Shown here in pieces: positions 27,061-63,598 of a DNA stretch of 64,000 nt. The notes under the pieces were generated by a model that saw only the letters and a program-made list of their open reading frames with translations, did no database searches and was not told where the DNA came from. Position 1 is the first letter of the stretch. Every line of letters begins with the position of its first letter. The position numbers and the translations under genes are program-made. The stretch is from Umbilicaria muhlenbergii (Eukaryota > Ascomycota > Lecanoromycetes > Umbilicariales > Umbilicariaceae), in NCBI GenBank assembly GCA_000611775.1, contig KK106987.1, positions 434,001-498,000 of the forward strand, read 5' to 3'.

Positions 27061-27080
27061 CTGTGTGTTTATATTACATA

Positions 27081-27372
27081 TTATTTATTTATGATTAAAG
27101 GGTCTCTGTCTGCTGAATAAGGTTCAACTGCTTTATAATATTCACAGTCTTTGCTATTTACCTGGTGATTTTCTTTGCAATTTACACACTTTATTATTAT
27201 GTGACTGCATATTGCTTGTTCCTTTTTGCAAATAAAGCATGTGTGCTTCCTGATATAATGATTTTCAGTGCATATTTGGCATTTGACTTCATGCATGCAT
27301 TTATGCTGTGTGTGGCTGAATCCTTGATATTTAATACATTGTTCATACAGTTTACAATCTGTGTATTTCATG
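27081..27372 (-). pseudogene. LINE ORF1, C-terminal zinc-knuckle part
   Basis: Open on the minus strand. It contains consecutive Cys/His knuckles (YEQCIKYQGFSHTQHKC, CQICTENHYIRKHTC, CSHIIIKCVNC), the nucleic-acid-binding domain of Tad1/I-type LINE ORF1 proteins. The first knuckle has Tyr where Cys is usual (CIKY rather than CxxC). At its N-terminal side the frame is interrupted at MKY by the left end of the 36-kb hAT insertion, and it resumes at 63598 going right. The eight bases coding for part of the Met-Lys dipeptide are duplicated at both borders. The RNA-binding role is known for the family, not shown here. Confidence 0.9.
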
Positions 27373-27382
27373 TAGACTGTCA
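27365..27382. other. Left target duplication and TIR of the 36-kb hAT insertion
   Basis: ATTTCATG (27365-27372) is followed by TAGACTGTCA. The same octamer follows the mirror terminus at 63591-63598. The next 135 bp match the reverse complement of the right end of the element at 4561-5232 with numerous C-to-T and G-to-A changes. Confidence 0.92.
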
Positions 27383-28269
27383 TTTGAGTCAGGTCAGGTC
27401 AAGTCAATGATCAGAGATTTAACTTATGAGTTCAACTTCTTCATGAACTTGATATTCAGTGATCAATCAAGTTAACTCTGAGGTACTCACATGAACACTG
27501 AACTAATCATATACAGTTAATTTTGCTTAATCATCATAACAGTAGTAAATTTAATATAAGTAATAACATCACTTTTCTTCTCATGTTATCACAGCTTTGC
27601 ATTATGTTGTTATCAAAGATAAGTATTGTGATAATTGAATACTTTTATATATTTATAATTGAATTATTAATCTGCAAAGACTGATATTATACATTGTGAG
27701 CACTGTGCAAACATGAAGAAAAACATGATATGTTAAAAAAGTAATGCTCAAAGGTAATACTCAAAGGTAATGTTTATCTAGAATTTGTGATGATTATATA
27801 CTTTTTTTAATTTTGCAGACTGTATCTGTAGTTGATCTTGTAACACAACTTAATGTTGATCTGCAGACAGCAATATTGATTGATTGATGCTGATAATGAT
27901 GCATTATTCATATGTTGAATTCATAAGTTGCTTATCTCAACTGACGGCAGTTGATCTTCTCTGAGCTTCACTTATTCATGCTGAAGTGAGGAAGGTTATC
28001 AAGTCATCAGATGATAAAAATATATTAAAATCATCTTACTCTCTGCCCTCTGACACATCTTCAATCACAATAAAGATGTTTAAGTCATCATTTTACTTTA
28101 TTTGTGCTCTCATCTGATGCATATCAGCAAGTTCATCTACTTTCATATCATTCAAATTGTTCATGTCAGACTCATCATGACTATTGCTGTTCATTGTCAT
28201 TATTTTATGCTTGACAGAGGTAAACTTTCTTCATTGAAGTGTTTTTATGAACTCATAAGTCTCCTCCTC

Positions 28270-29838
28270 ATTTATTATAATTAACTCATTCAGAACAGAG
28301 GCTTCTTAAACTCAGATTTCAGAGATGCTGACTTTCTCATCATTGTTATCATCATCAACAAGGTCATTCAACAAGGTGTTTCACTCATAATATTTAATTA
28401 AACAGAGCATACATATAATCTCAGTGCTTAAATATTCATGTCATCAATTGCAGATGTCTTTAATCATATTGAAGATGCATTTCACATTTATTTTAAAGAC
28501 ACATACAGCAAGAACATCTCTTGTCATTTAAGAGAAACCTTTAAGATCACTGTAGTTGACACTTCACATCTAATGATGTAATTAACTCAAGCCTCATATT
28601 GACATTACCTTTGAGCATTACCTTTAGTGAATCATTAGCATAATTGATTGACATAAAAAAATACTTAAAGATATCATCTTAAATATTTATTCATTATTAA
28701 TCCTTCAGCTCTGTCTGTTTAATTAATATGTTAAAATTCATATTCTGTGATTGATCTGCAGTGATAGTTGAGTTTATAGTCAGACTCTCATATTTCAAGT
28801 AATGTAAATCATAGTAGTCTTGAAATTATTGATTTTATTTAATTTCTTAAGATTTTGTTACTTCTTTCCTCTATGATGTATTAATTATGATCAAGCAGAT
28901 ATATGCATTAAAGTTATCTTATACTTGATCATTTTATATGACAGGTTTAAAACAGTTGTAAGATTATAAATTCATCATTAATTTGTCTGTGAATTTTTAT
29001 AACAATCTCTCAACTTATCCTGGCAGGCTTTCAGAGCAGTGATCAGTTTATGTTTTTAAAAAGTAATTTTTAATTACACTCAGCAGCAGTGATCTGCAAT
29101 GTGATTAATGAGTTGATTATACACATATCAGGTTTTATGTATTGTAACTTCAGTAATTTTTAAAAGTGCTGCAGTTCAGTCTTTAAATAATTTTAATAAT
29201 ATTAAAAGATAACAGACCTGTTCTCATTTTGAATTAATGATTATAAGAACTCAGAGCTTTCTATCTTGTTCATTAAAGACAAAGTTGCACAAGGTCTCTC
29301 ATAGAACATAAATTTAAAAAAGCATGTCATATGTGAAATTTCATCACATCTTGACATCTTGAATCATTTAAAGAAATTTTTAATTTAAGTTGTTTATATA
29401 AACTTGTTATTGAATATCTGCAAATCATTTGAATCTCTGTGAGGAAGAGTTGATTATGATTAAAAGATATTAAATCTGTCACATGTTGTTAATATTCAGA
29501 CATTATCAATGAGCATTATCATTTCACTTGCTTTTTACATGATGTTAATTAAAGATACCTTCTCTTGAATCTTTATCAACTTGTTCATATTTTATATCTT
29601 CACATGATGATTGTTTCTGATGTTTACATCAAGTGACTTCAATAAAGCCTTGACAGCAAGAGCTAAAACATGTGTCATACATGATATTATTATTTCAGCA
29701 TTATCTCATTAAATATCATGATCACTGCTCAAGACTGACTTCAGATGTGTGCACATAGTGATGTTATTAAAAACATTATTCATAATGATAATGAAGAGCT
29801 TGTCCTTGATTTTAAATGTCTTCAAAACATTAAGAACA
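28270..29838 (-). pseudogene. hAT transposase, central and C-terminal part
   Basis: The minus strand shows successive hAT landmarks. Near 29840-29740 the segment LKTFKIKDKLFIII and MNNVFNNITM stand where intact enzymes have YGIxDKL and TDNASNN, so the catalytic Asp region is damaged. CMTHVLALAVKALLKSLDV lies near 29683-29615. LLILLKLFKDWTAALLKITE, with the TGA read at the presumed Trp, and TIHKTWYVYNQLINHI (same reading) lie near 29235-29100. KLITALKACQDKLRDCYKNS lies near 29050-28990. The C-terminal dimerisation domain (SRMARDVLAVCVFK-like and CIFNMIKDIC) lies near 28565-28400; intact relatives read ARDVLAVPxSSAGVERIFN. An acidic tail follows (28390-28280). Stops are mostly TGA and frame shifts are present. 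The N-terminal part is displaced to 44984 by gypsy H. Confidence 0.85.
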
Positions 29839-30797
29839 TGTGAGCATTTAATGTATAAAACTCATCAGGTGCTAATTCAGAATAAAAAGAATTATATTCA
29901 ATAATGATGCAGTCTTGTGAAGATAACTTTCACTAGCAGATCATTCTCATGAGGGAGCTCAATCATAAATATCACTTCTGACACTTCATGAAAGTGATTA
30001 AAGAAGTCAACATCATTGATGACACCTCATGAAAATGTGATTCAATAATGAACATCTTGTAAAAACAGCTTCATTAAGGTGACTGCTTTGCATGAATCAA
30101 CCTTGTAAGAGAGCTCAGTCAATGAACATTACTTCAACACTTCATGAAAATAATTAAAGAAGTCAACATCATTGATGACTGTGACTGTGAGCATTCAATG
30201 TACAGAACTCATCAGGTGCTAATTTAAAATAAGAAAAATTATATTTAATAATGATGCAACCTTGTGAAGATAACTTTTGCTAATAAATCAACCTCACAAG
30301 AGAGCTCAACTAATGAATATCACTTTTAACACTTCACAGAAGTGATTAAAGGAGTCAACATCATTAATGACACCTCATGAAGATGAGATTTAGTAATAAG
30401 CATTTTGTGAAGACAGCTTCACTGAGGTGACTGCTTCACATGAATTAACCTCACAAGAGAACTCAGTCAATAAATATCATTCTCAGCACTTCACAGAAGT
30501 GATTAAAGAAGTTAACATCATTAATGACATCTCATGAAGGTGTGATTCAATAATGAACATCTCATGAAGACAGCTTCATTAAAGTGACTGCTTCATAAGA
30601 TCTTCCTCAGACTGATTAACTTCAAAAGAGATATATTATGAGGTTAAAGTGTGTCTTACTTTCTTTCTTAACAATAATTCTCTACTTACTAGCAATATCA
30701 TACTATTGTGAATTATCAATTATAAGTTTAAGTCATTATTGTCACATAGCTTCATAATTCCTTAGTTAAGATATTACCTTATGATAATACACTTACA
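29839..30797 (+). repeat. 5' LTR of gypsy H, expanded
   Basis: Begins TGTGAGCATTTAATG and ends ACACTTACA. It is built largely from a unit of about 165-170 bp carrying ACTTCACAGAAGTGATTAAA and CAACATCATTAATGAC boxes. The LTR leader (TGTGAGCATTCAATG) recurs at 30188, so this LTR is a partial duplication of itself and is about 190 bp longer than its partner. Confidence 0.85.
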
Positions 30798-31938
30798 GTT
30801 TTATTGCTCTGATTCATTATAAGGATGCTGTTCAGCAAAAATAACTGAAAACTCATGAGCTTCTCAATTAATCTTCACAACAATTTCACAACCTGCTTCA
30901 GAAACTTCACAAGCAATAATTAATAATGATTTTATTATTTTTGATTCTCAGTCATGACACGTCACTTCTACATTCTCTGAGAAGTTCATCATGATGAATA
31001 TCAAAATTCAACTTGTGAAAATTCAACTCATGAGTGAGAAGGAATGTACTAAGCAGACTGAGTTTAAAACTTGCAGATGATTTACATTAAATTTATCTTC
31101 AACTTTAAAATGCACCTGTTATGAAAAGTGAGTTAAAGATGAAGACCTTTATCATATGAAGAACTACTTTCACTTTCAACAGTATGTACATTAAATTAAG
31201 CATCTTCCTGTGAAGCTTCACTTTAAAGAGTCAGATCACTATCTGAATTATAAAATCATAAAGTGATGAGTCACACATCATGAAGAAAAGAGCTTAAAAG
31301 ATACCTGAGAAAGTCAGAAGAACTTTTTAAAGTTTTTTTTAAAAAATCATGATAATTAAATGTATAATGCATGAATGAATTAAATGAATTGTCACAAGTT
31401 AAATAATGAATTTGATGATGAGTATCTTCACAAGTCAGATAAACTTCTGATTTAAATAAAAAATGACATGAAGAATTATCATTAAATTCAGTTAATGATC
31501 TTCTTCAAGGGCTTGAATCATGTCATGAAGCAGAAGATTCATGAACACTCTGTGTTTTCAAACTCTCATGAAGATTTAATTACACTCATGAAGAAACTCT
31601 GTCTCAGCATCAAGACTGAAACTCACTTGTGAGTAATAATCATGAACAATGATTTCAGTGAAAGCACCTCTGTGAACTCTGTGAAGTGAAAGGATCACAA
31701 ACTTACAACATTCATCATTACTACATCACATGATTCAGAATCTTCATGAGGAGTATTCTTTAATGAAGACTGCAACTACTGTGATAAGCATGAACATAAG
31801 GAACTGAACTGTCTTAAGAAGAAGTCAAACAACACTGTGAACAGAACTCTGTCAATTGATTTAATTAATAATAATAATCATGTCATGACAATCTCTGAGG
31901 TTATTATAAAGGTCACTGTGAAGCCTAAATTAAAAAAA

Positions 31939-33622
31939 GATACATTATTTAAAATGAAGACATGATTATGACTCACAGTACATCTTGCAGAAAGATTACT
32001 TTCAACTGTTCTTAATAATATTAATGATCTCAATCTCCTTCATAAGAATATTGTGAAGAGCTTATCTTCAGTCTTTAAGATGTTATCACTTCATTATGCT
32101 GAAGGAGATATCTTGCAGACTTATTTTATTTATCATGAAGTAATAAAGGTTCAGGACTCTTTTGAAGTTTGAAAATAAACTCATGAATCTTTTACCTCTG
32201 CTGACTTAAAGATATCAGTGATCTTAAGATTATCATGATTATGATGAAATAATTCAAAGGTTGACTTCATTAATCTTACAGTACAGTGAAGATCAGATGC
32301 AGAGAACTTTTTAATAACTTCACTGCTAAAAAAGATTATCATAAAAGGCCTCATGAGAAAACTCAGAGATTTTAAGATAAACTACATGATGCAGAGATTA
32401 CAGATGATAAATTTTAATGAATTAAAAAACTTTATGAATCTGATTCCTGAAGCTTACAAGAGCCTCATGAAGGTTTTTTTAAAAACTTAAGTGAAAACTC
32501 TGCCTCCTCATTGTGAAAAAGATCACTCAATTAATTTATTAAAGAAAACAACATCATCTTTTGATCTTATGTACAATTTTTTCATGAAGGAGTTGACTGT
32601 ACTACAGAAGTATTTAAATATTAATCTTGTAAATGAGTTTATTCAGCTGTCATGATCTTCTGCAGAAGCATTAATACTCTTTATATTTAAAAATGATGAA
32701 GACTTGCAGCTCTGCATGAATTATCAGAGGTTAAATGTTATTACTTAAAAGAACTGATACCCTTTATCATTAATTAATGAGATGCATTTTTTAAGATGAA
32801 GACATGATTATGACTCACAGTACATTTTATAAAAAGATCATTTTCAATTATTCTTGACAGTGCTAATGACCTCAATCTTCTTTATAAGAATATTGTGAAA
32901 GGTTTATCTTCAGTCTTTAAGATGTTATTACTTCATCATGTTGAAGAAAATACCTTGCAGACTTATTCTGTTTATCATGAAGTAGTAAAGGTTCAGGACT
33001 CTTTCAGAGTCTGAAAATAAACTTGTAAACCTTTTACCTCTGCTGACTTAAAGATGTCAGTAATCTTAAAATTATCATGATTACAATGAAATAATCTGAA
33101 GGTTGACTTCACTAATCTTACAGTACAGTGAAGGTCAGATGCAAAGAACTTTTTAATAACTTCATTATTAAAAAAGATCATCATAAAAGGCCTCACAAGA
33201 AAACTCAGAGACTTTAAGATAAACTACATGATGCAGAGATTACAGGTGATAAATTTTAATGAATTAAAAAACTTCATGAACCTGATTTTTAAAGTCTACA
33301 AGAGCCTCATGAAGGTTTTTTTAAAAACTTAAGCAGAAACTCTGCCTCTTCATTACAAAGAAGATCACTTAATTGATTTGTTGAAGAAAACAACATCATC
33401 TTTTGACCTTATGTACAATCTTTTCATGAAGGAGTTGACTGTATTATGAAAGTATTTAAATATCAACCTCATGAACAGGTTTATTCAGTTATCATGATCT
33501 TTCATGAAAGTGTTAATGCTCTTTATATTTAAAAATAATGAAGGCTTGTAGCTCTGCGTGAACTATCAGAAGTTAAATGTTATTACTTAAAAGAACTGAT
33601 ACCCTATATCATTAATTAATGA
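31939..33622 (+). repeat. 842-bp tandem duplication inside gypsy H
   Basis: Two direct units, 31939-32780 and 32781-33622, span the protease-to-RT region. They share the ATGAAGACATGATTATGACT start and the AACTGATACCC...ATTAATTAATGA end. Differences are scattered transitions, so the duplication arose before much of the mutation. Confidence 0.85.
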
Positions 33623-36224
33623 GATCATGAATCATGTCTGTGATGCTCAAATCTTTACAAAGATTGATGTCAAAAACACTTATTATCACATTCACATACA
33701 TGAGGGTGATGAGTGAAAGATAGCATTTTGTATCAGGTATAAATTGTATAAATATTTAATTATATTTTTTGAGCTTATTAATACTTCTGTGAGTTTTCAG
33801 TCTTATATTCATGAAGTTCTTCATGAATATTTAAACATCTTCATGATTGTATTCCTGAATGATATACTGATTTACTCAACAGAAGAGAGTCAATATGAAC
33901 AGCATGTTTAAATTATCTTGAAAGCTCTACTCATGACAGAGTTGTTCACAAAGCTTTTTAAATACTTATTTAATGTGAAGCATGTGCCCTTCTTGAGATA
34001 TGTTATCACAGATACAGAGGTTGAAATGAAAATAAATCACATATTCATCATTGTCAACTGATCAGAGTTAAAAAGTATATGTGAAGTGCAAACATTTCTG
34101 AGCTTCATGAACTTTTATTAAAGATTCATACAAAGCTTCTCATGTATCACTGCACCTCTCATAAAGATCATTAAAGGGTTTAATGCAAAATCAAACAAGA
34201 AGTTGATTTCATGAAGAGCAAGTTTTCTGTTTTTGAAAATACAGACTGTCTTTAAAGTTCTTGTATAAACTTTCATTATCACTCTGTTCCTGCAGCATTT
34301 CAACATCACATTATTAATACAGCTTGAAATGAATGCTTCAAGGTATGTGATCTCAGGCATTCTCTCACAAAAGCACTTTGATGAGTGAAGAGTTACAGTT
34401 TATTTCTCATGAAAGATGATACCTGTGAAATGAAAATATGAAACTCATGATGAAGAGCTGCTCATGATAATTGAGAATTTTCATCATTAATGACATTATT
34501 TAGAAGGATTCACTCATTCAGTTGAAGTACTATCAGATCATTTAAGCTTATGAAGCTTCATGATTACTCATAAGCTCTCATGAAGACAGGTTTGATAAGT
34601 GTTGACTTTATCAACTTATGATTTTGTTATCACTTATTAAAAAAGAAATTTAAATTCTATTAACAACCCTTCATGAAGACTTGATCATTAATGTGAAGTG
34701 AAACAAGAGGATCAAACTGAGAATATTTTAATATTGTAACAAATGCTGTTCCTGACAGTAATTTTAATTTCAGTTAAACTTAAAGATGACTTATTAACTC
34801 AGGAGGTACATCTTCATGAGGTATTAATTGCAGGCATAATGAGTTCCTGGCAGTGAAATCAACAGAAACAAGCCTCTGAGACTGTTTTAAATGAAGAACT
34901 TTATGAGGAGGTTGATATCTCTCTCATTAAAATGTTACTTGAATTCTTGCAGATTGATCCTCTCATAAAGCATATGCTGAAACAAATCACTGCTCATGAA
35001 GTTAATTCAAAAATGTCAGGTTCTCACTCATTTTAATCATGAAGAAATGACCTTTTATACTTTAACTCAGTGCTTTATATACCTCATGTGAAGTCATTAT
35101 GACTTGAGATTATTAAAAAGCATCATGATGAGTTACTTGCAAGTCACCTCATAACAGAGAAAATCTTTACTTTGATACATGCAAAGTACTACTGATTGAA
35201 CATGCAGAAGCAAATTCAGAAATATTATAATTTTTATCTTGTCTGTCAAGAAGTCAGAGTCATTCATGAAAAATAATTTAAATTATTACAGCTCATACTT
35301 ATTCTGAAAGAACTCTGAGAGGTATTCACTTTAAACTTCATAACTGATCTTTCAGAGAGTCATGCTTATGAGGGTGTGTATGATGTCATATTGATGATGA
35401 TGTGTAAATTCTCAAAAATGACACATTATATTTCAGCCAAAAAGGACTGAACTGCTGATTAACTCATGAAGACCTTTATTAAAGAGATTATTAAGCTGCA
35501 TGAAGTCATTTAAGCTTTAATTTCAGATCATGAATTTGTTTTTACCTCATGACTCTGAGTCAACCTGATGTTCATGTTGAAGATTAATCACTGATTGAGC
35601 ACTGCCTTTTATTCACAAACTGATGAGCAGATTGAATAATAAAATAATATGTTAAAACAGTACCTGTGAAGTTATGTTAATTATCAACAGAACAATTGAG
35701 CCTCACTTTTAACATTAATTGAGTTTATGTACAACATGAGCTTATACTCTTTTACTGAAAAGACATCATTTAAGATCATCTATGACTTCATATTTAGATT
35801 GAATATGCTCACTGCAAAGGAACTTATGAAGTATTCTGCAGTTAAAGAAATTATCACTGAAGCTGAGCAGCTTGTGAAGCATTTTTATAAGATTTAATTA
35901 AAGTCTGCAGAGCTCTTGTGAAGTTTTAAGAGTATCAAGTTAAGCATTATAATCAGTCTCATCTTGATGTGATTTATAAAGTCAGACAGTTGATTTGATT
36001 GAAGGTTAAAAACATAACCTTGAAGTGATCCTCATGAAAGCTGAATTAACAGTGTTATGAACTCTTTCAGATTATAAAGAAGATTGAGAATATTGTTTAT
36101 TAACTGAAACTACTGAAGAAACTTTATATTCATGATGTGTTTCATGTTAATCTGCTTCATGATCATAAAACATGAGCAGATGAGGATACATCAGAGTTTA
36201 AATTACTTCACTTCACAGAGGACT

Positions 36225-36390
36225 TGTTATGATATGATTATGATTTTATCAATAATGCTTTTTTCTTTACTTCATGAGCGCCTTCCTTTGCTACGTGATA
36301 GCTCATACTAGTAATGTACTTATATAATCACAGTTCTATGAGAATGATTCATTAATAATACACACACTCATAATTGATCATATCATTACA
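36225..36390 (+). repeat. 5' LTR of gypsy F
   Basis: 166 bp, TGTTATG to CATTACA. It keeps an unmutated GCGCCTTCCTTTGCTACGTG core and a TATATAAT box that may be its promoter; both are conserved in the partner LTR. Confidence 0.9.
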
Positions 36391-39300
36391 AATTGATAAC
36401 AACACCTCATTCATAACATCATTGACTGTCTATGATAATCAGGCTGATTGTCATCAGATTAAGTCTTTCAATAATTGACCTCTCATGCAATTTTTGTCAA
36501 ATATGATAGCAGGTTTTTATTAAACTTTTTCATTGCTTCATCTGCTTCATGAACTGATGTGATTACCTGCTGCTGCTGATTTTTATTCTCTTTCATTTCT
36601 GCTTTTATTATTAAAAACTGATCTTTCATCTGTTCTTTCAATCATCAGTTTGTTAAAAACTTGTCTTTCATCTGTTCTTTCAATCATCTGTCTCTCATTT
36701 TGTTGTTTGACTTAAGATTCCTCATTCAGCCTCATTGAGTCTATCAGACTCATTGCAGTCATCATGATTACTTCATCAGACTCTTCATCACTTTCCTCAT
36801 TAATAGCTTCAGAAATTACACATTTAGCTCAGCAGGTGAATGCCTTTTTACAGAGTGAACATGCCTGAGCTATTAAGGTTAACTCATCTGTCAAGCAGTT
36901 CATAACTCAATTCTTATGATCTCATGATATACTCAGAGTAGCTGATCCGTCTATCTTTAATACTTAAACTCAATTGAAGTTCAGGGAATCACTCTTTTAA
37001 TCAGTGAATTGAGTCATTAATCATCTCAAGTTATGTCAAGCTATTCAGCGCTTGCTTGAAGTCATCAAAGGTGTTAAGAACTTTACATCATAATTTTTCA
37101 TGACTCATCTCAATGAGATCAGTTCTGAGTTAAGTTCAGCTTCTACTGAAACAACTTCCTCAGGAGCAGGTATGAGATGATTTAATGATGTTATTAAAAA
37201 TATACTCTGCTTTAATTCAATGACTCAGGCTCATGAGGGAACTGATTTCTTCACAGATCAATGATGTTCATTATGAAAGCTCATGACAGCTCAATCAGTC
37301 AAATCATCTGTTGAATAATTATTCAAGAATCAACATCCTGATAATGACTGAAAAGCTGATGATGTTGATTTCTTCAACTCAGAATATGAAGGAAATGAGC
37401 TGATTGTTAATTCAGAATGACACATTTTCTATAAGAATATTTATATTTTTATTAATTAACTAAAGGATCTGACTCCTCAGAGAGGTGAACTCAAGTTATG
37501 TACAGTTTTATCACAGTGTCTTCATAAAACTGCACTTATCTGACACTCAACAGAGCTCATCAATCTGAAGAAGACTTTACTCTGAGATGCATCTCTCAGT
37601 ATCTGATATGTCATCTTGATTAATTGATTCAAAAAGTATGACTTAGTTGCTCTACAACATCTACAAACTGAGTATTATACTATGACAGATGCATGAGATG
37701 AAAGAAGTTCATGATTTTACACTCAGAATATCTTTCATCATGTTAAAGCTGCTGAGTTAAGCTTTATTTACAATCAGTTGATCATGACATGAAATAACCT
37801 TGCTCTGAAGTTCTGTTGAGATATTTCAGAACTTATCCTCACAACTATTATAAATCAATTCTTAAAACAACTGAACAGTAAGTTGAACATCTGATATGAG
37901 ATGATCAGATGAGATCAGCTGAATCAGCTTCATAAGTCTGCAAATCAATTTAACAGGAATAAGCAATTTGATCAGTATAAGAAGTTTTCATCTCATCAAA
38001 ATCCTTATTCAAGACAGCCTGTTTTTCCTACTTATTCAGCATATGAGTAATCATATGATACTTTTCCTTCTAGTTGACCTTTCTATTCTAGTTATAACAA
38101 TAATAATCAAGATCAACAGTCACAGTCATTAACATCTCAGCTGCTCATCATCAGAGCTTCACTTCAGATCATTGATGAAAAAAACATGTTCACTGAGCAA
38201 GCTCAACAATCAAAAGGATTGACAAATTCAGGGTGAAACTATCAAGATCAAAGACAGTCATGATGACTTAAACTCACTGCTTATGTTGCTGATAAATGAG
38301 ATGAGTTAACAGCTTACAAATCTCCTGCATCTGATGAGCTCAGTGAACTGAGCTCAGATGAATCATTATTATACTCATCATTCAATGATGAATATGACTA
38401 CCCTACTGATTATTATGCTGTTAATTTAAATCTGAAATATTATAACTCTGACTACTATAGACCTGACGTTGACTCAGGTTATTCACATGACTTCATGAAA
38501 GACTCACATAACTATTTTGTGACCTTCATCATGAATATTAACTGTCAACATTGCAGGGAGGAATTTCCCTTCAGGAATAAGTTACATAAGCACTTTAAAG
38601 AAGGCTGTTTATGAAGTGTCATTTCACTGAAGAAGCTCACAGGAAATGCTTTTCTTATTAAAGCACTCATCAAAGTTCTTCATATCAGTGCAAAAGTAGT
38701 TACTTCATCAGTCAATTCAGCTACTGATATCAGGACAGGCTATGACTTCAGAAATTAACATTACATTATAACAGAGGTCAAGTTAGCACCTGTATGTTTT
38801 TAAAAGCAGTTTATCTGAACACTGAATGTTCAGTCACCTTGATTAATTAAGCTTTTTTACACAGTCAGCTACCTACAGTCCTCATACAGATCATGACATC
38901 ATCAATCTCAGTATGAAGCATTAACTCAAACAAGCATTCAATCAATGAATATGTCATACTACTCATCTATTTAGCAGGCAATAATGACAATGAGGATATC
39001 ATAAATGCCCTGATTATGAGAGAAGCTCATATCATTGATGAGCTAAAAGTGAAAATGCTAATTGAAATGAACATTATGAGGCTGAAGCAGATGAATATTA
39101 TAACATTTAAGAAGTCAACTTACATTGACAGCTGCAAGACAATTATAATCATTAATACTCAATCACAAGGACCTCTGATTCAATGAACAGTTCATGCAAA
39201 ATTCATTATAAACATTTTATTAAATACTCAGCTGATTATTCTGATGCATCACACAACTTTACCTGAAAGCAGAGACTTTCTTTTTAAGTTGAGTGAGAAC

Positions 39301-42300: not shown

Positions 42301-43103
42301 AATTGTTATTTCTTGCTGTTAAAGACTGAGCTTTACTACGCCTGCACTGCAGTTATGTCATATCATCAATAATTAGTAAGAAGTTAAGCCAGCAATATGT
42401 AAGCTCTTTTTAAATAAAGAAACATATAAGCTGTTTGATTTATTAACTTGACATGCTCACTGACTGATGAATTCATTTCATTTTCATGATGACACAGCTG
42501 AAACCATGCCCGCTGTTTAATTCAAACTCATATGATAAATCACAGTCAGATCACTCACTGTCAGTTTTCATTGAAGAAGACACTGATAACTGAAAGTCAT
42601 GAGAATTAAAAAAGATTCTTAACAAGCAGATATTCAAATGAGGCTGTGATATGATCACAAAGTATCTGATTAAATAAAAAGATTATGAATCTGAGTTTAA
42701 CTGCTGAATGAATATAAAGGACCTTCAAGATGCTTTAAAGCTTGTAAGAGATTATGAGAAGATCATTGCAAATCAAATTGACTTAACATCAGCACTGAAG
42801 AAAGTCAGTTCACAAAGTGAGTTGCTTAAATGAAGTTGATCAAGGACAAAGGCCCCTGCGCTTAACACAACACTCATGATATCAGTCATCAATATGAGAG
42901 CATTACTCATGCTGATTATTATTACAAAAGCACTGCTTGCACTTAACTTAATGATGTTTGCTACTGTTATGAAAGCACTCATCATGCTCAGCTCATCAAC
43001 ATCTTTAATGCTTATCAGACTAAGACTTAAAAAAGTATAAATCATGAATTTATCAAACATAATGATGAGAGCATCAGCTTTCTTTCTTTTGTTGTGAGCA
43101 GAT

Positions 43104-44978: not shown

Positions 44979-44983
44979 GGACA

Positions 44984-46670: not shown

Positions 46671-46674
46671 AAGA

Positions 46675-47295: not shown

Positions 47296-47299
47296 TCTT

Positions 47300-50937: not shown

Positions 50938-51560
50938 TAAACAACAGATAAAGGAAGAATGTTGTTTTAAATGCAATAAACAGAGGCACCTTGCCTTAAA
51001 TTATTCAAACAAAGACAAAAAGAAAGAGACTTCAACATTAAAATGCATGCAATGAATCATATTCAATTTCTCTCATTAATGCATGTTAAGTTATGCTCAA
51101 TTTTGTTACTTTTTCACAGCAAGGCTTGAAAGAACTCATTTTTCACATCTTCATGCTTAAAGATAATCTTGTTTCAGATACTCATGAGATTTTGTTTAAG
51201 TCATTTCATTATAAATGTAAATAATTTGCAAAATGAGCATTATTTATTAACTTTACCTGACAACTTCTTCTTGAAATATTTCACAGACTTGATTTCTCAA
51301 GCATTTTTCATTAAAACTTGATGTTCATCATGACTCATTTCATTTCAACTTGATGTTATTTTTTATATTTTTTAATGACATTTCAACTTAACCTGCTCAT
51401 CTGCATTCTTAGCACGTGCAATTATAATTTAATTATTAATTTCATTATAATACTTTTGCTGCTTTCTGATCATGCTTTCATGTTGATTATATTCACTGAG
51501 GTGCTTTTATGAAGTGATTAATGCAACATTTATCTTATGTTGACTTGCTCATCAAGGCGT
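50938..51560 (+). mobile_element. Gag zinc-knuckle fragment, plus strand
   Basis: Immediately right of the foldback, the plus strand encodes a retroelement CCHC-type knuckle (CFKCNKQRHLALN near 50950-51010) followed by about 500 bp of AT-rich DNA that may be the protease region. Orientation is opposite to gypsy fragment I. If this piece were flipped, it would take the place expected for gag and protease of fragment I. Broken, with no LTR seen. Confidence 0.5.
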
Positions 51561-51727
51561 GGTAGGTAGACTAATCATGATGAAGTGAAAAGAGAACTTA
51601 ATTACATTATTATTACATAAATTAATGATCTGTCTCTTATGATGTGAGTATTATCTTTGATCATTACTTTGCTTCTGACATAAGAGAGTGAGAGAGCGGG
51701 TGATCAGATGTATTAATGAAGAAGTGA

Positions 51728-51871
51728 TGTTGTAAATGATAAAGATGTCAATTCTATCTACTAAGAAGTCAGCTTTTATGCTGACTTCATTAAGCTATGT
51801 TAAGTTAAAGTAAGATAAGATAAGAGATGATGAAGCTCTGATAAAGCTGAGGCTTTGATAAAGTCACAACA
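51728..51871 (-). repeat. 3' LTR of gypsy G
   Basis: 144 bp, TGTTGTAAATG to GTCACAACA. It contains a short palindrome AAGTCAGCTTTTATGCTGACTT. A purine tract on the complement (about 51876-51888) adjoins it. Confidence 0.9.
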
Positions 51872-54800
51872 AGTGCCTTCTTTCAAACATGCTCATAGCC
51901 TTTATGAGCTTTTCACTTCTTTAGAAGCATGTTTCATTTTACTTAAATGCATGTCATTAAGGTTTCTGCATGATAATATCATACTGATCAAGACTCACTT
52001 GCTAACATAGAAAAACAGGAGGTAGAAGAAAAAGTGTTGTAATGATTAAAAATCAAAATAAAGAAAGAGCAGGAGGTTGAAGTTCATAATGTTAAATGAT
52101 GTTTAAATTTCATTCTTCACTGACTTTCTTGTGACAGCTTCTTCATCAGCTTATGAGGAGTACTTGATGATTTTCACAGTGATCATTGCTGATGACAGCA
52201 TGATTAAATCAGGAATGAATTATTGAGTTTATATTCATTTTCTTTGAAGACCCTTGCAACTTTAACTCAGTAATCAAGCTTGTCTGACATGCAGATGTTG
52301 ACATTGGTGCTGATTGCATCACTGAGGAACTTCACTCAGCAGAAGCTCACATTTCACTTTCTCTGCATTAAGTTTCATTCTCAAGTCATTCATGTTTTAA
52401 TAAACATGATTCAGTCCCTCCGCCACTTGGCGTAGGCTTGGTAAAGTCATGTGCAGTGATCATTGCACATTTGTACAGAGTGAGTGACATACATTTTCTT
52501 GATTTAAAAGTTTACAAGTCAGATGACTTTATTCTCAGTGATGAGTGATCCTGTCACATCTGATATATGATATTTGCAGGTGACTTATATGTCTCATGCT
52601 GAATCCTCAGATTCATTAGTGATCTTAAACTCTGTATCTCTTATAACTAGATAAGTTATATGACTCATGAGAACTTGATACTTCATAACTCTCTTGTCCC
52701 CTTTCTTCAGACCTTTTCATTGTTTGTGAGTTTGTTCATCATGAACAATACTGCATGAAACTCTCAAGATCACTACATTCTTTTCTGATTTCACTGAGAA
52801 AGACCTCAGAGCATTTTCTGCTACAGCTGACAGAAGACTGAGTAGAAGAAAAAATGCTGTAATTATAAATTTACATACATCAAATAAATATTGAATTATT
52901 CACTCATGTTTATATTTTTTTATATTCATGTGCAGTCATCCTCCTTCCTTTGAGTTCATTCTTCAGAATGAATTTATTAGAATTTAAATAACTTTCTTCA
53001 TATTCTCATCTGTTATCTGCATTATTTCATTAATACTGAAATCCTCCTCCCTGTGTTCATTTGCCCTCAATCAAGCTCTATGATGATTAATTTTGTTACA
53101 AGTGATGTTGAGTGACATCTTAATTAATTTTAGAGGCTCATTGCTGTCATCATCATTGTTGATGTTCTCTGTAATTTAATTAACTGTGACTGACTTTGTT
53201 GTCATTTCTGTAAAAGCGCTCATGGTAACTTCCTGTGAATTAATCATGATTTCATCAGGTCAGCTAATCTTGATGAGCTCATCATCTTCATCATATAAAT
53301 TGCATGAGCCTCTGTCTTCATCTGCATAGTACTGAATTTCATCTTCAGGGTTTACTTCATCTCTGTTGTTATAATAAAGGTTCTTGAAGTTATGCCTGCT
53401 TAATGTGCTCATGTGATAAATGCATGCTGTGAGTTGATCTCTCATCACAACATCATGTGATTTCACCATGATTATTTCTTCCTTATGAGTGATGAGTAAT
53501 GATAAGTAACTGATGATTGATCTGAGGCTCACTGTAGAATGTCAAGCAGTGATTATATGATGATGCTGTATCATTTGTGAACAAGGGGAGGCTCACTGAA
53601 TTAATTGTGACAGAGGAAGTGAGGTTCTCTGACATAATTTGTTGAACAGTGAGGAAAGTGAGGTGTAGAGCTCACTGTTTAATAATGAGGCAGTGAATTA
53701 TTCTGACCTCACACATCATCTGATGAGGGATTTCTCTGAGCATGCCATGTATGATGCTTTGTAATATGATAAGTATGCTTCACTAAGTGTTATTTCATAG
53801 CACACAGAGCAATCAGAGTCATGTGATGAGATTTTAAAAAATCTCAGAGGATCTTCTATTGATTTCTTCTTAAAAGTGTCAGCTTTCATCACTGACTGTC
53901 AATGCTTCAATCTGAGCTCTCACATGTGTGTCATCATATGCCTTTATGAGATCTCTTGCACTCCTCAGATCTTTAATGTTATACTACATGTCATGTTCAG
54001 AGCTATAGCCTTTTCATCATATAAGGTATTCAGTGATTATTCTGCAGTCATCACATTTAAAGCGCCTTGTTCTCTTCTTGAGCAGGCATTCAATTTCATA
54101 ATGATTTAAATCATCATTCATCATCATTAACAACAGGTGATCTGACCTCAGCTGATTGTATGAGTCAGCTGTGATTGCACCTTTCAGGTGAGTTATTGAT
54201 ATGATGTCATGAATTTGTTAATGAGGGGAGAGATTTAGCTTATAAATTAAGCGTTTAATTCTCTTGATGACTTTAAATAAGCTCATGAACTGCTGTTTAA
54301 TCTTCTTGTTCTGAATGCCTGATATAGTGTACCCTCAGTGTAATCATAGGTTGATCATGTCATTAACTTTGAAGAACTTCAGTGTATGCCTGTCATCATA
54401 ATATTCCTTCATGTGAATGATGATGAAAGTTATAACATCTTTCATGTTAACTGCTGTAAGCTTGTATTCTGTCATTTCTGTCATTGAGTCTGCAGGATTT
54501 GCATCTTGAATTTCTCTTGAAGCTGCCTCATTTGTAAACTCACTATTCTCATTGACTCATAAGAGGTTGAGGACTTCATGAGTTCAAAATTCATAAAGGA
54601 CCTCAGTTGACGTTTTAATGATGTTGAAATATTTTGTAAAGTTGTTCAGGGCTGCCTGCATTCTTAGTAATATTATGACTCAACTGTTAATGTCTTTCAA
54701 TGACATCAAAAAGTATCACAGCGCAATTTTCATTATCTGATTTGTGATTTCAGAGCTCTCATTCATTTGAGAGTGATACACTGTTGATAATAATGATTTA

Positions 54801-57800
54801 ATCTTTAATTTCTCAAAGATCTTCTTTCACATTTCTGTTATGAATTTTGAGTCCCTGTCTGTCAAGATTGCCTTGAGGAGGCCTCAGTTTATAAGAGTTA
54901 AACAGTTAAAAAACTTTATGACTCATTGTACATTCTTTCATGTGATTTTGCTGAGGATAAAGCTTATCACTTTGCTGAATTTGTCTGTTAAAGACATTAT
55001 GCAGTCATATTTTTTCAGCAGAGGTGTTACAGGCAGTCCTAGTATGAAGTTTAATGAAATGATGTGAAAAGGTTGTGAAGACATCAGAATTGATTGAAGA
55101 GCACTGTATGATTTATGCTTGAGTATTTAACATAACTGGCATTGAGGGCATGAGTGAATAAACTCATGAAGCTTTTTGAAGAGGTTGAAGAAGTATAATT
55201 CCTCAGTGAGATGCTCATGCATTCTTGCATATTCAGAGTGTCTCAGCTCATCATGTGCTTGCTGAAACAGTTCCTTTTTCAAGTCATTTATTGATGAAAT
55301 GTTTAACTGAAGGCTGATTTCTAAGTCCTTGTAGTAAATCAAGCTGTTTATTATCTTATATGATAAAGCTGAGGTGTTCTCTTCTAATCTGATGTTTGTT
55401 TTTATCATGATTTTAACTTTGATTCACTGAGCGTCCTGATCATATCTGGCAATCAGGCGCTCTTGAAACTCTGAGTTTAACTTCATCAGTGAAATCAGGT
55501 ATGCCATCATGTTGTAGATTAATGACATGTAGAGAGCATCAAGGGTTGAAGTATTTAACTCTTAATAATAATTCTGCTCTGTCAATCTGAATAATACATC
55601 TGATATCACATTGAATTTATCAGGCTTGTAGTGAATGTCAAGTTAAAAGTGTTGAAAATATTTGAATGCTTAAATGAGCTGTAGGTTCATCTTTTCAGTT
55701 GATGTTGTTAACAGACTTGATTAACATACTATGTTGACTGTTGCTGCATGATCAGTATATATGATAATGACCTTGATGACTGATTCAATCATGTGTCATA
55801 TTTTCTGAACAACTCATATTAAACTTGTCATCTTCAACTCAGTGAATCAGTATTTAGTCTCTGCATCTGCAAGCAGCCTGTTGAGAAAACATATAAGTTT
55901 CATTTTTTTTTGTTTCCCCTCCTGAGTCAGTTCTGCCTTGGTTTCACTGTCACTTTGATGATGATAAACATGAGCACTGAACCTGAATTCTTTTGATGCA
56001 TTTAGATTGATGTACAGCTGACAGGCTGAATTGAAGTGAGTTAATATAATTAACTGAGAGAACATTGCTTGAAGTTGATTAAATGCTTGAAGCTCTTATG
56101 AAGTTGACATGTTTATCTTTACTTTTTTAATCATCTTTTTTCTTGCTGTGCCTTTGAATGATTTACCTGATCACTTCTTAATGATTTTATTTAGCAGTGT
56201 TTTTTGTTTCTGAAGTGATTTCAAAATAACTGTGTACTTTAATATGTATTGTCAAAGGTACCTGATAAGATCAAGGTATTTCTTAAGAGCGCTCAGTGAT
56301 TTAGAGAATTTTAATTATGTAATTGCTGTGAGCTTTTCTTCTACTGTTATTAATTCTAGAGCATCAACTCTCTGATTAAGAAGCTTTACTGAGGGATAAT
56401 CAAGAAATGACTTCTTGAGAAAGAGACAAATATTCTTCTCTGTTAACACTCTGAATACATTATCTAGGTGATGTAAGTGCTTATTCAGCATGTTGAAGAA
56501 TATAACAATGTCATTCATGTAAACTCATGTGAATTTGTGTTGCTCTTGAAGGACTTTGTCTATCATTCTTTATATATAAACTGATGAGTTTTTATATCTC
56601 ATCATCATCACTTTGAATACTTCCTGGCCTCAGTGAGAGGACATGATAAGCTTGTGATGTGCCTCTGATTTTATTCTTCATTGATGAAAGAAGCTGCTGC
56701 AGTCTACTGTGAATATGTAGTTGAACTCATGTACTGCTGTGAGGACTTCAACTTGAGACAGCACTGAGTAGACGTCTGGCATCATTATTTATTTAAAGCT
56801 CATATATTCATGACAACTCTGCTTTTACAGCCTTCTTGAGTATCTCTTCACATGATGAAACAAGGGTATGTGAACAGGGTAATGATTGACACTCATTTTA
56901 AGTAATTTTCAGTGTGTAGCTTGTTGAATATTTTATTAATGAGCTCTTTGTCTTGCTTTTTCAGTGAGTACACCTTGACTTGCTCAGCCTTATAGAGCTC
57001 TCTTCAGTTATCAAGAAGTGATATGTTCATTCACTCTGACTTCAGAACATCAACAACATTGTTTTAATCTTCTCATAACTGAGGGTATTAATTGATGACT
57101 TTGATAATCTGATACATGATGTTCACATCACTACACACAGTGATTCTGTTCAGTAGCAGGCTCTCTGCAGATGATTATGATAAAGATGAGAAGTTTCCTG
57201 TGAATAAATCATTCATGACTATGTTGAATGCCGTGACTGCAGTTAGAATGCTTTGAAAACTTCAGCATGCTCAACTCTCATTATCTCTTGAGTGAGTCTT
57301 CTGAGCAGCAAGCATTGAGGTGTTTAAATAAGCTGAGTAATAATCATCTGCCTCATACTTCACTACCTGACTTAGGTGAGTCTTTCAAGGCAGGATCACA
57401 GGCTTTTCAAACTCATTATAAATCAGTACTTCAGACATCATGTGATTGATGATGTGAGCATAAACCGTGAGTTCAATGCTAATATCATTAAATTTAAATA
57501 AGAGGTCCCTGTCCTTGAGGAGTTCAATCTCATGAAACAAGATAATGAGTACTGCAATTTAAGCCTGTGGTGAAACCACAGTGTACTCATTAAACATCAC
57601 TGTTTTATTCATTCAGGCGTTAAATCTAGTTGTTACATGTAGTGAAATGATGATATTTTGACAGCTTTTTATCACAGTCACTGAGTTCTTTAATTGCAGC
57701 TTGACTGTGACCTCCTTTGCTGTCAGTATATCTGTCTCAATAAGCATGTTTGCTTTGAGGTTGTTAATTAAGTGAAATTCACTGCTGATGTAAGCTGTCC

Positions 57801-60204
57801 TGCCGTCAGTGCCTGAGAGGTAAATATTCAGGATGACATACTCATTTGCTTAATAAGTTGCAGTCTCAAGGCTGCAGATTGAGATTAATGATGCTGTTCA
57901 CTTCATCTTGTGAGTCTCATTCAAGGTTAATTCATGAAAGAACTGTTTATTAATGAGGCTCATAATGCACCTGCTATCAATGCAGACTGACTCTGCAGGT
58001 GTATTCAGCTTTTCACTGAATCTCATCTTTGCTGTGAAGTATCATCAATCCTGAAAAGCATATTCTTGCATAAGCTGCTTTGGCTTGCTTGAGCTCATTA
58101 TGATAAGGTGATTAAATGAGCTTTTAATAAACTTATGATTAACTGCCAGTAGACAGCCTTTTCAGACATGCTTATGCAGTTTATTGTTTAACTGAAATTC
58201 CTCATGACAGTTCTGACAGGAGAGGGAAGATGTATAATGATTTATATTTAAGTTTTCTGATTTTTCTCTTGATTCTTTCACGGCTTAGCTGTCTTGCTCA
58301 TTATATTTGTTGAAGCTTGAGATGTAGATGTCCTCAGCATCTTGCTGATAAGTTTGCTTATAGAAATCATCTTTTCACTTCTGATAAGTTGACTGCTCAT
58401 CTTCATCAGGCTCCTCATGATAAGCTTGAAGATGATTAAGTTGTCAGTGTCAGAAAAAGTTCTTGTTTCTGATGTTTTAATTCAGTGATAAATTTACATC
58501 AGTGAATGATTTTTCATTTTCATTTGTGATTATGAGTAATTGATGTATTTTTTTAAATTAAAATGTAACTGTGATTTGATCTTGTACTTGTGCATTGTTA
58601 GAATTTCTCTGATCTTGATATGCAGGATAGCAGTCATATCCTTTATTGAATCACTCAGCATTATGAAAGGAAGGGTTATTGACAGAATAATTAATATTAA
58701 AAAACAGAGAATGATTGTTCCCTTGAAATTAAAATTGAGATGAATGATTAAAATGTTGCTTATCTTGTTGATTGCCTGACCGGTGTTCTCATTAATCATT
58801 GAAGGTATTATCATGGCTAAACTCTTGATCTTTGATGTACATGTCAAATTAAATATCTTTCTGGTAATTGACGTCCTCAATAAGGGTCGCTATGATAGAG
58901 TTTGATGTGAGGTGAGGTAAGTGTAGGTGTAACTCAGCATTCAGATGTTCATAAGTGATTAAAACTTGAGCTGCTTTCATTGTAACAGTTTCAGCATTCT
59001 TCTCATGCAGAATGATGAACTGTATATAGAAGGCTGAATCTTGATGACATTTAACATCATGAACAGTGTATCATAGAGCCTCTAAAGCTGTCAGGGCTCT
59101 ACTGAGATTATTTTAAAATTTGACTTTCAAGGCATTACATCATTCAAATACCTCATTGTTGTTGTTCCTCAAGCTTATATGAGAAAGGTGAGTGAGTTTC
59201 TTTATGTATCAGATGTTCACCTTTTCTAGAAGACAGATGTTCAGATTTTGCTTAAACAAAGCTGCATTCATGATGAGCACTTTAACACATAAATGATTAA
59301 TGAAGCTGAACACATTATGATAGATTTAATGATTCTCCTTGACTTCAACTGATTCAACATCTGAATTGAGGTCAAAATAATTGATATTTCAGAGCTTAAA
59401 TGTTGAGTTACCTCTGATTTTGTCATTTATTGAATCAACAGAATTAAGAAGTTCAACTTCATCTGATGATCCTGATGAGCCTTGTGAGCTTGCTTAAATG
59501 TTAATCATGACTGTTGTTACTGCTGCTTAAACATTGACTTGAATAAGCTGCTGCATCTCTTCTTGAGAAATTCCTTCATCATTGTTTGTCATGCCTGAAC
59601 CGTGAGATGACCTTTATTCATCATGTATTAACTCAGTTTCACTTGTGATTTGTTAAATGATGAGCTCATTGAATGATCCTGACGTGAATGAGTTGTGAGT
59701 AAAGGAGTCAGGATGATGTCTTGTTGAGGAATGACATTCTCATTCTCATGAGCTTTGATGTTGTGTATGAGAGAGTACAGCAGCTGAAACAGCTTCTAGA
59801 AGTCTGCAGATATCATGATTTAATCATGATTTATCTGTGACTCACTCAGGTGATCAAGTGAGGAATTCTTAAGATACTGCTTTAATGAATTAATTAAATT
59901 CCTTTAATTGAGCATCTGCTGATCTGATGTTTTCTTGAACAACACAGGTGATGACTTGTTTCCTGACTGCTGAGATGTCTTCAGCTTAATGATGATCTGA
60001 GTTGATGAAGTCTTAAAGTTGATAATTAAATGCTATCATAGCTTGATTTAAAGCCAGTCAATTAATGTCTGATGTGAACATCAGATTGATGATTTACATG
60101 ATAAAGTTAAAGCTTTAATAAAATTAATGCTAGGTAAGAAGACCTAGCTGTTAAAGCAGTTTATGATACCTTAATGATCATTTATGATGATGTTGCTATC
60201 ATTT

Positions 60205-60348
60205 TGTTGCAAGTGGTAAAGATGTTGATTCTATTTACTAAGAAGTCAGCTTTTATGCTGACTTCACTAAGCTACATTAAGTTAAGGTAAAATAAGATAA
60301 AGGGTGATAAAGCTCTGATAAAGCTGAAGCTCTGATAAAGTCACAACA
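60205..60348 (-). repeat. 5' LTR of gypsy G
   Basis: 144 bp, TGTTGCAAGTGG to GTCACAACA, with the same palindrome as the 3' copy. AGTGA follows at 60349. Confidence 0.9.
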
Positions 60349-60353
60349 AGTGA

Positions 60354-61186
60354 TGTAAATTAAACAGTAAATGTTAATAATTGTCATTATCATTAACATG
60401 TGAGTAATACCTGAAGAAATAAGACATGCTACTAAATGATGAAGAAGAATAAATGTTAAAAAAAGTTAATATACACAGCTGATAAATTATTCTTTAACTT
60501 GTGAATTTTGATACTGAGGCTTATGTAATTAAAAGCGCTGCTAAACAGGATCTGATGTTGATATTAACTTACAACATTATTTAAATGATGAGGTGAAGTG
60601 TAAATCAAATGATGATAACATGAGCAGAGGTGAGTTGCACAAGAAATGTTTATATTTATGTATTTTAATCATGTTTTTAAAAACTTATATTGATATCACA
60701 GCATCCTGCCTCTGCAGTGAATGCATCAAAAGTTAAATGTTGATGTCACAACATCTCATCTTTACAATGAATGTGCTGAAAGTGCTGTGTTGATTTAATA
60801 ATTTAATTACAGATGTGAAATCTGCAGCTGATTATGTTTTTTTTTCATGCACTTTAACATCTCTCTTTTACACCTCATTATTGAAGTTTCAGTTAAGTAA
60901 TGCTTTCAGATAACATTCACAACTTGGCAGCTCACTCAAAAATAAGATTTTAGTTAATAATACTTTATGTGCTCAGAGCACTCTCTGAGCAGTAAATGAG
61001 CTCATACAAATCTTACACTTTAAATAACTATTATACCTTCATGAATAATAAGAAACTTTTTATTGAAAAGTTTTAAATCTCTTTATTCTGTACACTTTAC
61101 AAACTAAAGATTTCTTCATAAGTTTTAATTTGCAATAGTTATGAATTAAAAAACTTTTAACTAATTATAAATATATTAGCATATTG
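60354..61186. other. Unassigned DNA of the hAT insertion
   Basis: No gene recognised. Between about 60940 and 61186, words such as CTCAGAGCACTC, AATAACTATTATACC and CAATAGTTATGAATT loosely recall the foldback family, so a diverged foldback relative or a mutated left arm may be present. Confidence 0.4.
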
Positions 61187-62037
61187 AATAACTATTGCGC
61201 TTTTATACTGATGATATAACTTTCAGTTTATAAGTTGTAGAGAAGAAACTATTAAACAGTTTTATAACTTAAAAGTTTTTTTATAACTGTTGTTGTTAAA
61301 AAGTTACATTGATTTCAAACTTCCAGTGATGAAAATCACAACATTAATAAACAGACTTTTAATGACTTTTTGAATAACTCAACAACAACAACACATAAAA
61401 AAAAACTTTGTATAAGAAAACTCTTAAACAGCTTATTCTCTACAACTTATAAACTGAAAGTTATATCATAAGTATAAAAGCGCAATAGTTATTCAAAGTA
61501 TATGACTTTTTTTGAAAGATTTTTCGCTATTAAAAACTTGAATTAAATATAACTTAACAACAACAGCAGTTATAAAGAAACTTTTAATTTAACATTAATA
61601 AAAAATACTATTCTTTATAACTTATGCATTGAAAGTTTCTTCATATCTGTTGAGGTGCAAAAGTTATTAAAGTGTGTAAATTTTTAAGTGGTGAAAATCT
61701 TGAAGTTCTTTAAATATTCAGAACTCAACACTTATACAGTGCTTTCAGACTCAACAAATCATGATTTTTTATTGCAGAAAAGTAAATTTTAGCAAAAGTT
61801 TACTTATTATAAGTTTTACTGTTATTATAACACTGTGTGTGTACTTGTTTAAACAATTGTTTTAATAACTGTTTTTTTATCACAAAATTTTGATGTTCCG
61901 CTCAAGATTTAAGGTTGAGCTCAAAGTGCTCAGAGGATGCTAAGAGCAGCTGTTAACTGAGACATGAGATCAGAAGCTCAGAGCGCTCAAAGTGTTAAAA
62001 ACTAACTCAGAGTTAACTTGCTAAATTGCTGATGAAT
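61187..62037. mobile_element. Foldback element, copy 3, left arm incomplete
   Basis: It covers the central spacer and the complete right arm of the foldback family, ending TTGCTGAT at about 62037. The outer part of the left arm is absent: similarity starts at TTGAATAACTATTGCGC near 61187. It is slightly more mutated than copies 1 and 2. Confidence 0.82.
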
Positions 62038-63465
62038 GCTTGTGATATTTATTCATGCTGATAAAGATTTACTTCTCTTTAAATCTTCAAGCTCTGCATA
62101 CTTTCCTCATTATTTTTAATGCACATTTTTCATGTTGTCCTTCACTTAAATACCTGTCAGTTAAATAATGTTCATAAATAATGTCTGCATTCATTCTTAA
62201 TGATTAATATTTTATTATCTTCAGATTTTATACATCTTTTTAATATACTTCTTCATCTTTAACATATCTTCTCAACTTCAACACATCTTGTCATCTTTAA
62301 TAAACTCATCATCTTCAACATATTCTGTCATCTTTAGAACTTATCATCTTCAACACATTTCATCATTTTTAATATACTCAGTCATCTTCAATTTATCCTG
62401 TCACAATCATCATGCTTCATCATATTCAACACATTTCTTTAATGTATCTCTTGTCTTTTCTAACTAGTCATACACCTTCACAACTTTTCACAAGTATAAT
62501 TAAACAAGTCAACACTCATAGTAATGCTGAAAGCTAATGCTTATTAGGTAACTGAAGTATGATGTGTATTAAAAATAAAGTTAAACATCTGTCAGCTGTC
62601 TCTTCTTCTTTTAAAGATGAGCTTCATTAAGTCAGAAAGTCAGTGAAAATTTATAAATCATTAAAGAATAAAGTTATGAAGAAGCATCAGAAAGACTTAA
62701 CATAATGATGATTAATTATATAATTTACATCTTGAGGAAAAGAACCTGCTCACTCAGAGTGATTAAAGATTTTGTGAAAAATTAAGTCAAAAAGTAAGTT
62801 TCTCATATTAATTGATAATATCAAAAGTTAATACCCTTTTGCAGTGAGAGCTTTTCATGAAATTAAACATTATCAACTTATAAAAAAGCTTCTTATTCTG
62901 AAAGCTGCATTTCAATGTTTAATACATAAAATCATAATCAATCTGCCAAGCATGCAGAACATTAATGTTAAAAAAATATATTAACAGAAGACTGCTCTGC
63001 TGATGTTACAGAAATCAACAGAAGTGTTATTGATTTCATTTTTTAAAAATAAGTTGTCTGAAATACAAAGTAATGCTAAAGTTGATGCCTTCACGCAGAT
63101 ATCAATTTACTCATCATTCATGAAAAGTGAATCATTATTTAAAGTAAGAATATAATTTTAACAAAACATCTCTTGCTTCTTGATTCAGGTGGAAATCTTG
63201 CACTGTATATTATTAAAATGCAAAATTCAAGGGCTATACCTGCTTCAAGGCAGCATGATGACTAAAGAAGTAATGTTAAATGATAATGCTTAAATTGTTT
63301 CTGTAGGATAGGATACTAGTGTAGTAATAAGAATATGAAACTTAAACTGAGATCACTCTGACCTGCATAAGTGATAACTCTAATGTGCAAAAGTAAAGTT
63401 TTAACTCTTGTGCAGATAGAATGCATCATATATAAAGACTTGATGAGTTCTGCAAGACTCTCAGT
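62038..63465. other. Unassigned DNA near the right end of the hAT insertion
   Basis: No domain recognised. From 62270 to 62410 there is a degenerate repeat of a CATCTTCAACACAT word. From about 62580 to 63300 the composition suggests a badly decayed coding region (many TGA stops), but I could not match it to a family. Confidence 0.4.
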
Positions 63466-63580
63466 GTCTTACTTTATTACTCACTTCAACTTGACATGTC
63501 AAGATGAGTTTAAAATCACTGAGACACTGTCATCTGACTTGACTTAACTCAACTTAACTCAGTGTCACTCTGACCTGCAG

Positions 63581-63598
63581 TGACAGCCTAATTTCATG
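63581..63598. other. Right TIR and target duplication of the 36-kb hAT insertion
   Basis: TGACAGCCTA is followed by ATTTCATG. The preceding 125 bp (from about 63465) match the reverse complement of the left end of the element at 4561-5232, with the same motif order (CAGTGTCA box, GACACTGTCATCTGA box, CATGTCAAG box). Confidence 0.92.

Follow-up and report, generated by a model that had tools for sequence, protein, structure and literature searches.

A probable hAT transposon relic, stretched to 36 kb by nested retrotransposons, in a LINE of Umbilicaria muhlenbergii

Introduction

A stretch of contig KK106987.1 of the fungus Umbilicaria muhlenbergii (assembly GCA_000611775.1, forward-strand positions 434,001 to 498,000) holds a 36-kb interval that interrupts a long interspersed nuclear element (LINE) and has ends resembling those of hAT-type DNA transposons. 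By the window we mean this whole stretch of 64,000 nucleotides, from whose first letter all positions are counted. Lengths of 2.5–5 kb and 8-bp target site duplications are given for hATs (PMC3942097). The question raised by this locus is how an interval so bounded came to be so long. The answer that we consider very probable is that a hAT-type transposon inserted in the LINE, decayed and was stretched to 36 kb by nested insertions, leaving a dead relic without recognised cargo. Among the paper titles listed by keyword searches of the literature, none concerns this element.

Results and discussion

Boundaries of the insertion and its target site

The features that define the interval are as follows.

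27373 to 63590, no strand assigned: the whole insertion of 36,218 bp, the probable hAT relic together with its nested elements
27365 to 27372, no strand assigned: left 8-bp target site duplication, ATTTCATG
63591 to 63598, no strand assigned: right 8-bp target site duplication, ATTTCATG
24309 to 27372, minus strand: host LINE, left part (end of open reading frame 1, ORF1, by reading; endonuclease by Pfam)
63599 to 64000, minus strand: right part of the host LINE (read as the upstream part of ORF1)

The insertion opens with TAGACTGTCA (27373–27382) and closes with TGACAGCCTA (63581–63590), which form short terminal inverted repeats with one mismatch in 10. The two copies of ATTTCATG directly abut these ends and are identical at all 8 positions; two random 8-mers from the window would be equal with a probability of 7.7e-5. 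A first-pass annotation of this DNA had proposed hAT-type ends and an 8-bp duplication bounding a single interval, and the perfect duplication on both sides bears this out. Its left position also stands, the left end sequence starting at 27373, while the right end sequence finishes at 63590 rather than starting there.

When the flanks are joined without the interval and one copy of the duplication, a stop-free frame of 138 codons on the minus strand spans the junction, reading ...NSLHIMKYTDCKLYEQC... where LHIMK meets KYTDCK. The LINE frame is thus restored by removal of the interval, as had been claimed, and a frame of 138 codons or longer arises in only 7 of 5000 random joins within the window. 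We take this frame to be ORF1 of the LINE. Pfam gave no match above cut-off for the two ORF1 pieces, while the endonuclease domain PF14529 is found in the left LINE part on the same strand as the joined frame (26362–26733, E 3.6e-14). No second copy of the LINE target part was found in 1701–24300 (best score 43.5, against up to 44.0 in five shuffles). Given the continuity of the frame and the 8-bp duplication, we regard the LINE on the two sides as probably one and the same copy. On the earlier concern that the two sides might belong to different copies, only the frame and the duplication have any bearing, and both favour one copy.

A short relative carries both ends

Comparison of the window with itself revealed a second, much shorter element.

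4561 to 5232, minus strand: 672-bp non-autonomous relative with both ends, TAGGCTGTCA...TGACAGCCTA
27373 to 27506, plus strand: left end of the insertion, starting TAGACTGTCA; homologous to 5232–5099 (95 of 134 positions identical, 38 transitions, 1 transversion)
63457 to 63590, plus strand: right end of the insertion, finishing TGACAGCCTA; homologous to 4694–4561 (99 of 134 positions identical, 33 transitions, 2 transversions)

In the self-comparison, 5099–5232 matches the left end and 4557–4694 the right end, both reversed, and TAGGCTGTCA stands at both tips of the short element. The patterns TAG[AG]CTGTCA and TGACAG[CT]CTA have four sites in the 64 kb, namely both ends of the insertion and both ends of this relative. 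Because the two 134-bp ends recur as a pair, correctly oriented, on the 672-bp element, we conclude that they are the ends of one family. This is the opposite of the ends occurring independently beside unrelated DNA, the outcome that the first-pass annotation had named as refuting a single insertion. A non-autonomous relative that keeps both ends is usual for hATs, though not strictly defining, and its ends would presumably be mobilised by the same kind of transposase.

It could be supposed instead that the ends of the 36-kb interval derive from different insertions, the duplication and the frame agreeing by chance or through rearrangement. Only 402 bp of LINE are visible at the right, with no second LINE copy for comparison, which leaves such a reading some room. 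Set against it are the perfect 8-bp match, the joined frame, each with the low chance expectation given above, and the occurrence of the same end pair together on the short relative, and we regard it as vanishingly improbable.

The interior consists mostly of nested retrotransposons

We searched six frames of the whole interval against Pfam at its curated cut-offs, with X at stops, in the segments 27373–30002, 30001–36224, 36225–43271, 43271–51729, 51729–60353 and 60353–63590. Combined with searches for long terminal repeats (LTRs) and other repeats, this gave the following features.

29839 to 44978, plus strand: gypsy-type element F, with LTRs at 29839–30797 (959 bp, part of it duplicated internally) and 44212–44978 (767 bp)
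31938 to 33625, plus strand: tandem duplication of 846 bp within F, with 107 transitions and 2 transversions between its copies
36225 to 43269, plus strand: gypsy-type element a, nested in F, with 166-bp LTRs at 36225–36390 and 43104–43269
51728 to 60348, minus strand: gypsy-type element b, with 144-bp LTRs at 51728–51871 and 60205–60348
47845 to 49512, minus strand: pol relic D, with reverse transcriptase and RNase H above the Pfam cut-off and the integrase zinc finger below it
49531 to 50938, no strand assigned: palindromic repeat P1, beside the reverse-transcriptase end of relic D
61184 to 62036, no strand assigned: palindromic repeat P2 (partial)

Only reverse transcriptase, RNase H, the integrase zinc finger and a Tf2-1-like SH3 domain exceed the cut-offs anywhere in the interval. 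Below them lie DUF6236, DUF4143, RapZ-like_N, DUF7667 and rve (E 0.058 to 0.67), which we treat as noise except for rve, since that domain fits element a. All four of the accepted domains are found in F; element b has the first three, while in element a RNase H alone is above cut-off, with reverse transcriptase, the integrase zinc finger and SH3 below. The Ty3/gypsy order of reverse transcriptase, RNase H and integrase is kept in all three elements (partly below cut-off in a), and their LTRs have TG...CA tips. Each is flanked by a 5-bp duplication, perfect for b (AGTGA on both sides) and with one mismatch for F (GAACA at 29834–29838, GGACA at 44979–44983) and for a (GGACT and AGACT). An Rfam search gave 0 matches above gathering scores.

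Relic D has reverse transcriptase and RNase H with no LTR pair, and is a pol relic only. Comparison of the five residual pieces in ten pairs, both direct and inverted, returned no LTR pair for it; two pairs (27373–29838 with 50939–51727, and 44984–49530 with 62037–63590) beat all 40 dinucleotide shuffles, by a small margin. A plus-strand peptide, CCFKCNKQRHLALNY (50957–51004), adjoins P1 on the opposite strand to relic D and is similar to a gag zinc knuckle.

P1 and P2 belong to a set of palindromic repeats, about 1.4 kb long where not partial, at 21863–23250, 23688–24309, 49531–50938 and 61184–62036, with ends like CATCAGCAATTTA. The copies at 23689–24309 and 49530–50150 are 99% alike. Between the copies that start at 21863 and 49531 there are 59 transitions and 56 transversions. 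Because transitions and transversions are about equal here, unlike the near transition-only differences between LTRs, the palindromic repeats seem to be younger or exempt.

From this set of results the interior looks to be made up of retrotransposons rather than cargo, because only retrotransposon domains exceed the cut-offs and because the LTR pairs come with 5-bp duplications. The first-pass annotation had suggested that a hAT of roughly 10 kb or less was enlarged by nested insertions, and this is supported, F, a, b, D, P1 and P2 accounting for most of the 36 kb. With F (and a within it), b, P1, P2 and two of the 5-bp duplications subtracted, 10,186 bp are left. About 1.7 kb of this belongs to the pol of relic D, so that by arithmetic the hAT part has an upper bound of about 8.5 kb.

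Two other histories would make the mobile unit larger. The first is a large hAT with cargo that, like the 14-kb ToxhAT, moved in one piece at a size far beyond 10 kb. Cargo-bearing fungal hATs have been published (PMC12506042; PMC6710886), the 10,186 bp left here exceed the 2.5–5 kb given for hATs (PMC3942097), and a decayed or unfamiliar cargo gene would slip past Pfam. On the other side, no non-retrotransposon domain exceeds the cut-offs in any of the six frames, and the bulk of the interval consists of retrotransposons with duplications of their own; we consider this history highly improbable. The second, which we rate as very unlikely, is that part of the load, either relic D or other DNA of the residue, was already on board when the element last jumped; a hAT well above 8 kb, and perhaps above 10 kb, would then have moved whole and produced the perfect 8-bp duplication. 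Growth by nested insertion after the hAT had landed remains our preferred account.

A probable decayed transposase is split by element F

Two pieces of what reads as a single transposase gene lie on either side of F.

44984 to 45125, minus strand: upstream piece of what we read as a decayed hAT transposase, ..FLMITAYYID..HVL, interrupted by F; unrecognised by Pfam or in the PDB
29580 to 29838, minus strand: downstream piece of the same putative hAT transposase, with ..IIMNNVFNNITM.. and ..ISCMTHVLALAVKALL..; unrecognised by Pfam, and no transposase in the PDB

A minus-strand frame running from about 45125 breaks off at 44984, where F intervenes, and continues from 29838 as ..LNVLKTFKIKDKLFIIIMNNVFNNITM.., followed by ..ISCMTHVLALAVKALL.., so that the pieces stand in one frame, split at 29838/44984, once F and one copy of its duplication are omitted. 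We take these to be three blocks of a hAT transposase. Two of them, at 29789 and 29687, share a frame and are separated by 102 bases. The catalytic block, searched for with a 12-residue pattern, has a single match in the 64 kb, at 29789 on the minus strand, and none when the interval was shuffled 200 times. A 7-residue pattern followed within 200 bases by the next block, in frame, is likewise absent from all 200 shuffles. Patterns for BED (23 minus-strand sites) and for a C-terminal S-E-R-F-S motif (78) are uninformative.

A number of observations weigh against assigning the element to hAT, or against the history that we favour. The motif patterns were written after the peptide had been seen, and they tolerate C-to-T and G-to-A changes. 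Taken singly they are weak: the 7-residue pattern by itself turns up in 26 of 200 shuffles, the second-block pattern at 3 sites in the window and the ITAHYID-like pattern at 11. The stop-free frame across the F junction, at 66 codons, is equalled in 656 of 5000 random joins. Neither the whole interval, in all six frames, nor shorter pieces gave a hAT, BED or dimerisation domain in Pfam. In the PDB, the downstream piece drew five sequences, all of them nuclear RNA export factor 1/TAP (best E 0.066) and no transposase, and the upstream piece, in frame, drew zero matches. A tolerant C-terminal W-W-P pattern has 0 minus-strand matches in the window, although decay or loss would look the same as absence here. 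The fifth base of hAT ends is G by rule, and that of the insertion ends is C. The flanks of the 672-bp relative, TGCAAAAC and GTCAGAGG, contain no 8-bp duplication. Finally, the borders of relic D are not fixed, and with them the length of the hAT.

Since 8-bp duplications are not exclusive to hATs, the element might belong to another superfamily that makes them, such as P or KDZ. The base at the fifth position and the silence of Pfam on hAT domains would both suit this explanation. It has to contend, however, with two hAT-like blocks at close spacing in one frame and with a further block, weak by itself, that lies upstream on the far side of the F junction, and domains of other DNA transposons were likewise not recognised. 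We consider another superfamily unlikely; the element is most likely a hAT, a label that draws on motifs, ends and duplication and that no profile search confirms. Pfam on its own passed over what we interpret as a decayed transposase. Scans for hAT transposases with which to compare it, judged by eye, gave 0 of 19 stretches from viral contigs and, in bacterial and archaeal genomes, first no stretches and then 0 of 11.

Transitions dominate the differences between copies

Across the two pairs of ends, 71 transitions and 3 transversions separate the large copy from the short relative, and at 65 of the 71 transitions it is the large copy that has A or T. LTR differences, gaps apart, amount to 90 transitions and 1 transversion in F, 14 and 0 in a, and 17 and 0 in b. 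The transitions are spread over several sequence contexts. Within the interval TA stands at 0.68 of expectation and CpG at 0.07, with CA and TG raised, and in the first 1.7 kb of the window CpG is at 0.99 of expectation.

Because of the transition excess we infer a host process that mutates repeats. Repeat-induced point mutation is described as specific to fungi (PMC6710886); its classical CA-to-TA mark is absent here, TA not being raised in the interval, which counts against the classical form. Loss of methylated C is an alternative source of the same excess. As a separate observation on composition, the window has about 45% G+C at 1–2000, against 25–37% with CpG depletion further on, and 1–1700 is perhaps the edge of a gene-bearing region.

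Order of events

The favoured history would begin with cut-and-paste insertion of a hAT into ORF1 of the LINE, duplicating 8 bp of target. The inserted copy would then have been altered, mostly by C-to-T and G-to-A changes, with the repeat-mutating process as the putative cause. F entered what reads as the transposase gene, splitting its frame, and a entered F; b and the palindromic repeats went into the remaining hAT DNA. The data place F inside the hAT and a inside F, and b, P1, P2 and D may each have arrived before or after F. The locus is nevertheless a clear case of nested insertion, in which outer and inner duplications and a joined frame together give a partial order of events. Its value lies chiefly in annotation, as a reminder that 36 kb enclosed by hAT-like ends can be something other than a giant transposon with cargo.

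Comparison with described hATs

Fungal hATs of about 9.5 kb full length, decayed by repeat-induced mutation, have been described (PMC6710886). The hATs of Pseudocercospora fijiensis and related fungi in that account are like the present element in their short inverted ends, 8-bp duplications and heavy decay, and in them, too, a dimerisation domain was not identified. They differ in carrying pieces of histone H3 and a recognisable DUF659, where we find neither a captured gene nor a hAT domain in Pfam, and in showing a CA-to-TA bias, where TA is not raised here; the present copy, unlike them, is stretched by nested retrotransposons.

BuT2 of Drosophila (PMC3942097) likewise has long copies alongside short copies that keep the outer ends only, and one of its long copies is reported to have been enlarged by an insertion, likely of a mariner element. 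Its host, sequence, length (2,775 bp) and 12-bp ends are different. Short hAT relatives have also been described for Mar (PMC3517528). ToxhAT, the 14-kb hAT of wheat-infecting fungi (PMC12506042), is likewise an unusually long fungal hAT; it carries a host-relevant gene, and none was recognised here. Nothing in the present element departs from these kinds of hAT. It is a new relic of a known kind that has met an ordinary fate for old repeats.

Other repeats in the window

Large direct duplications, about 84% identical, pair 5233–6191 with 7479–8440 (128 transitions, 17 transversions) and 8438–11149 with 13033–15749 (396 transitions, 19 transversions). They adjoin a stretch, 6192–7528, that matches the host LINE. 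At 20366–20794 a perfect 100-bp unit is repeated 4.3 times within a degenerate repeat of 12–13 bp.

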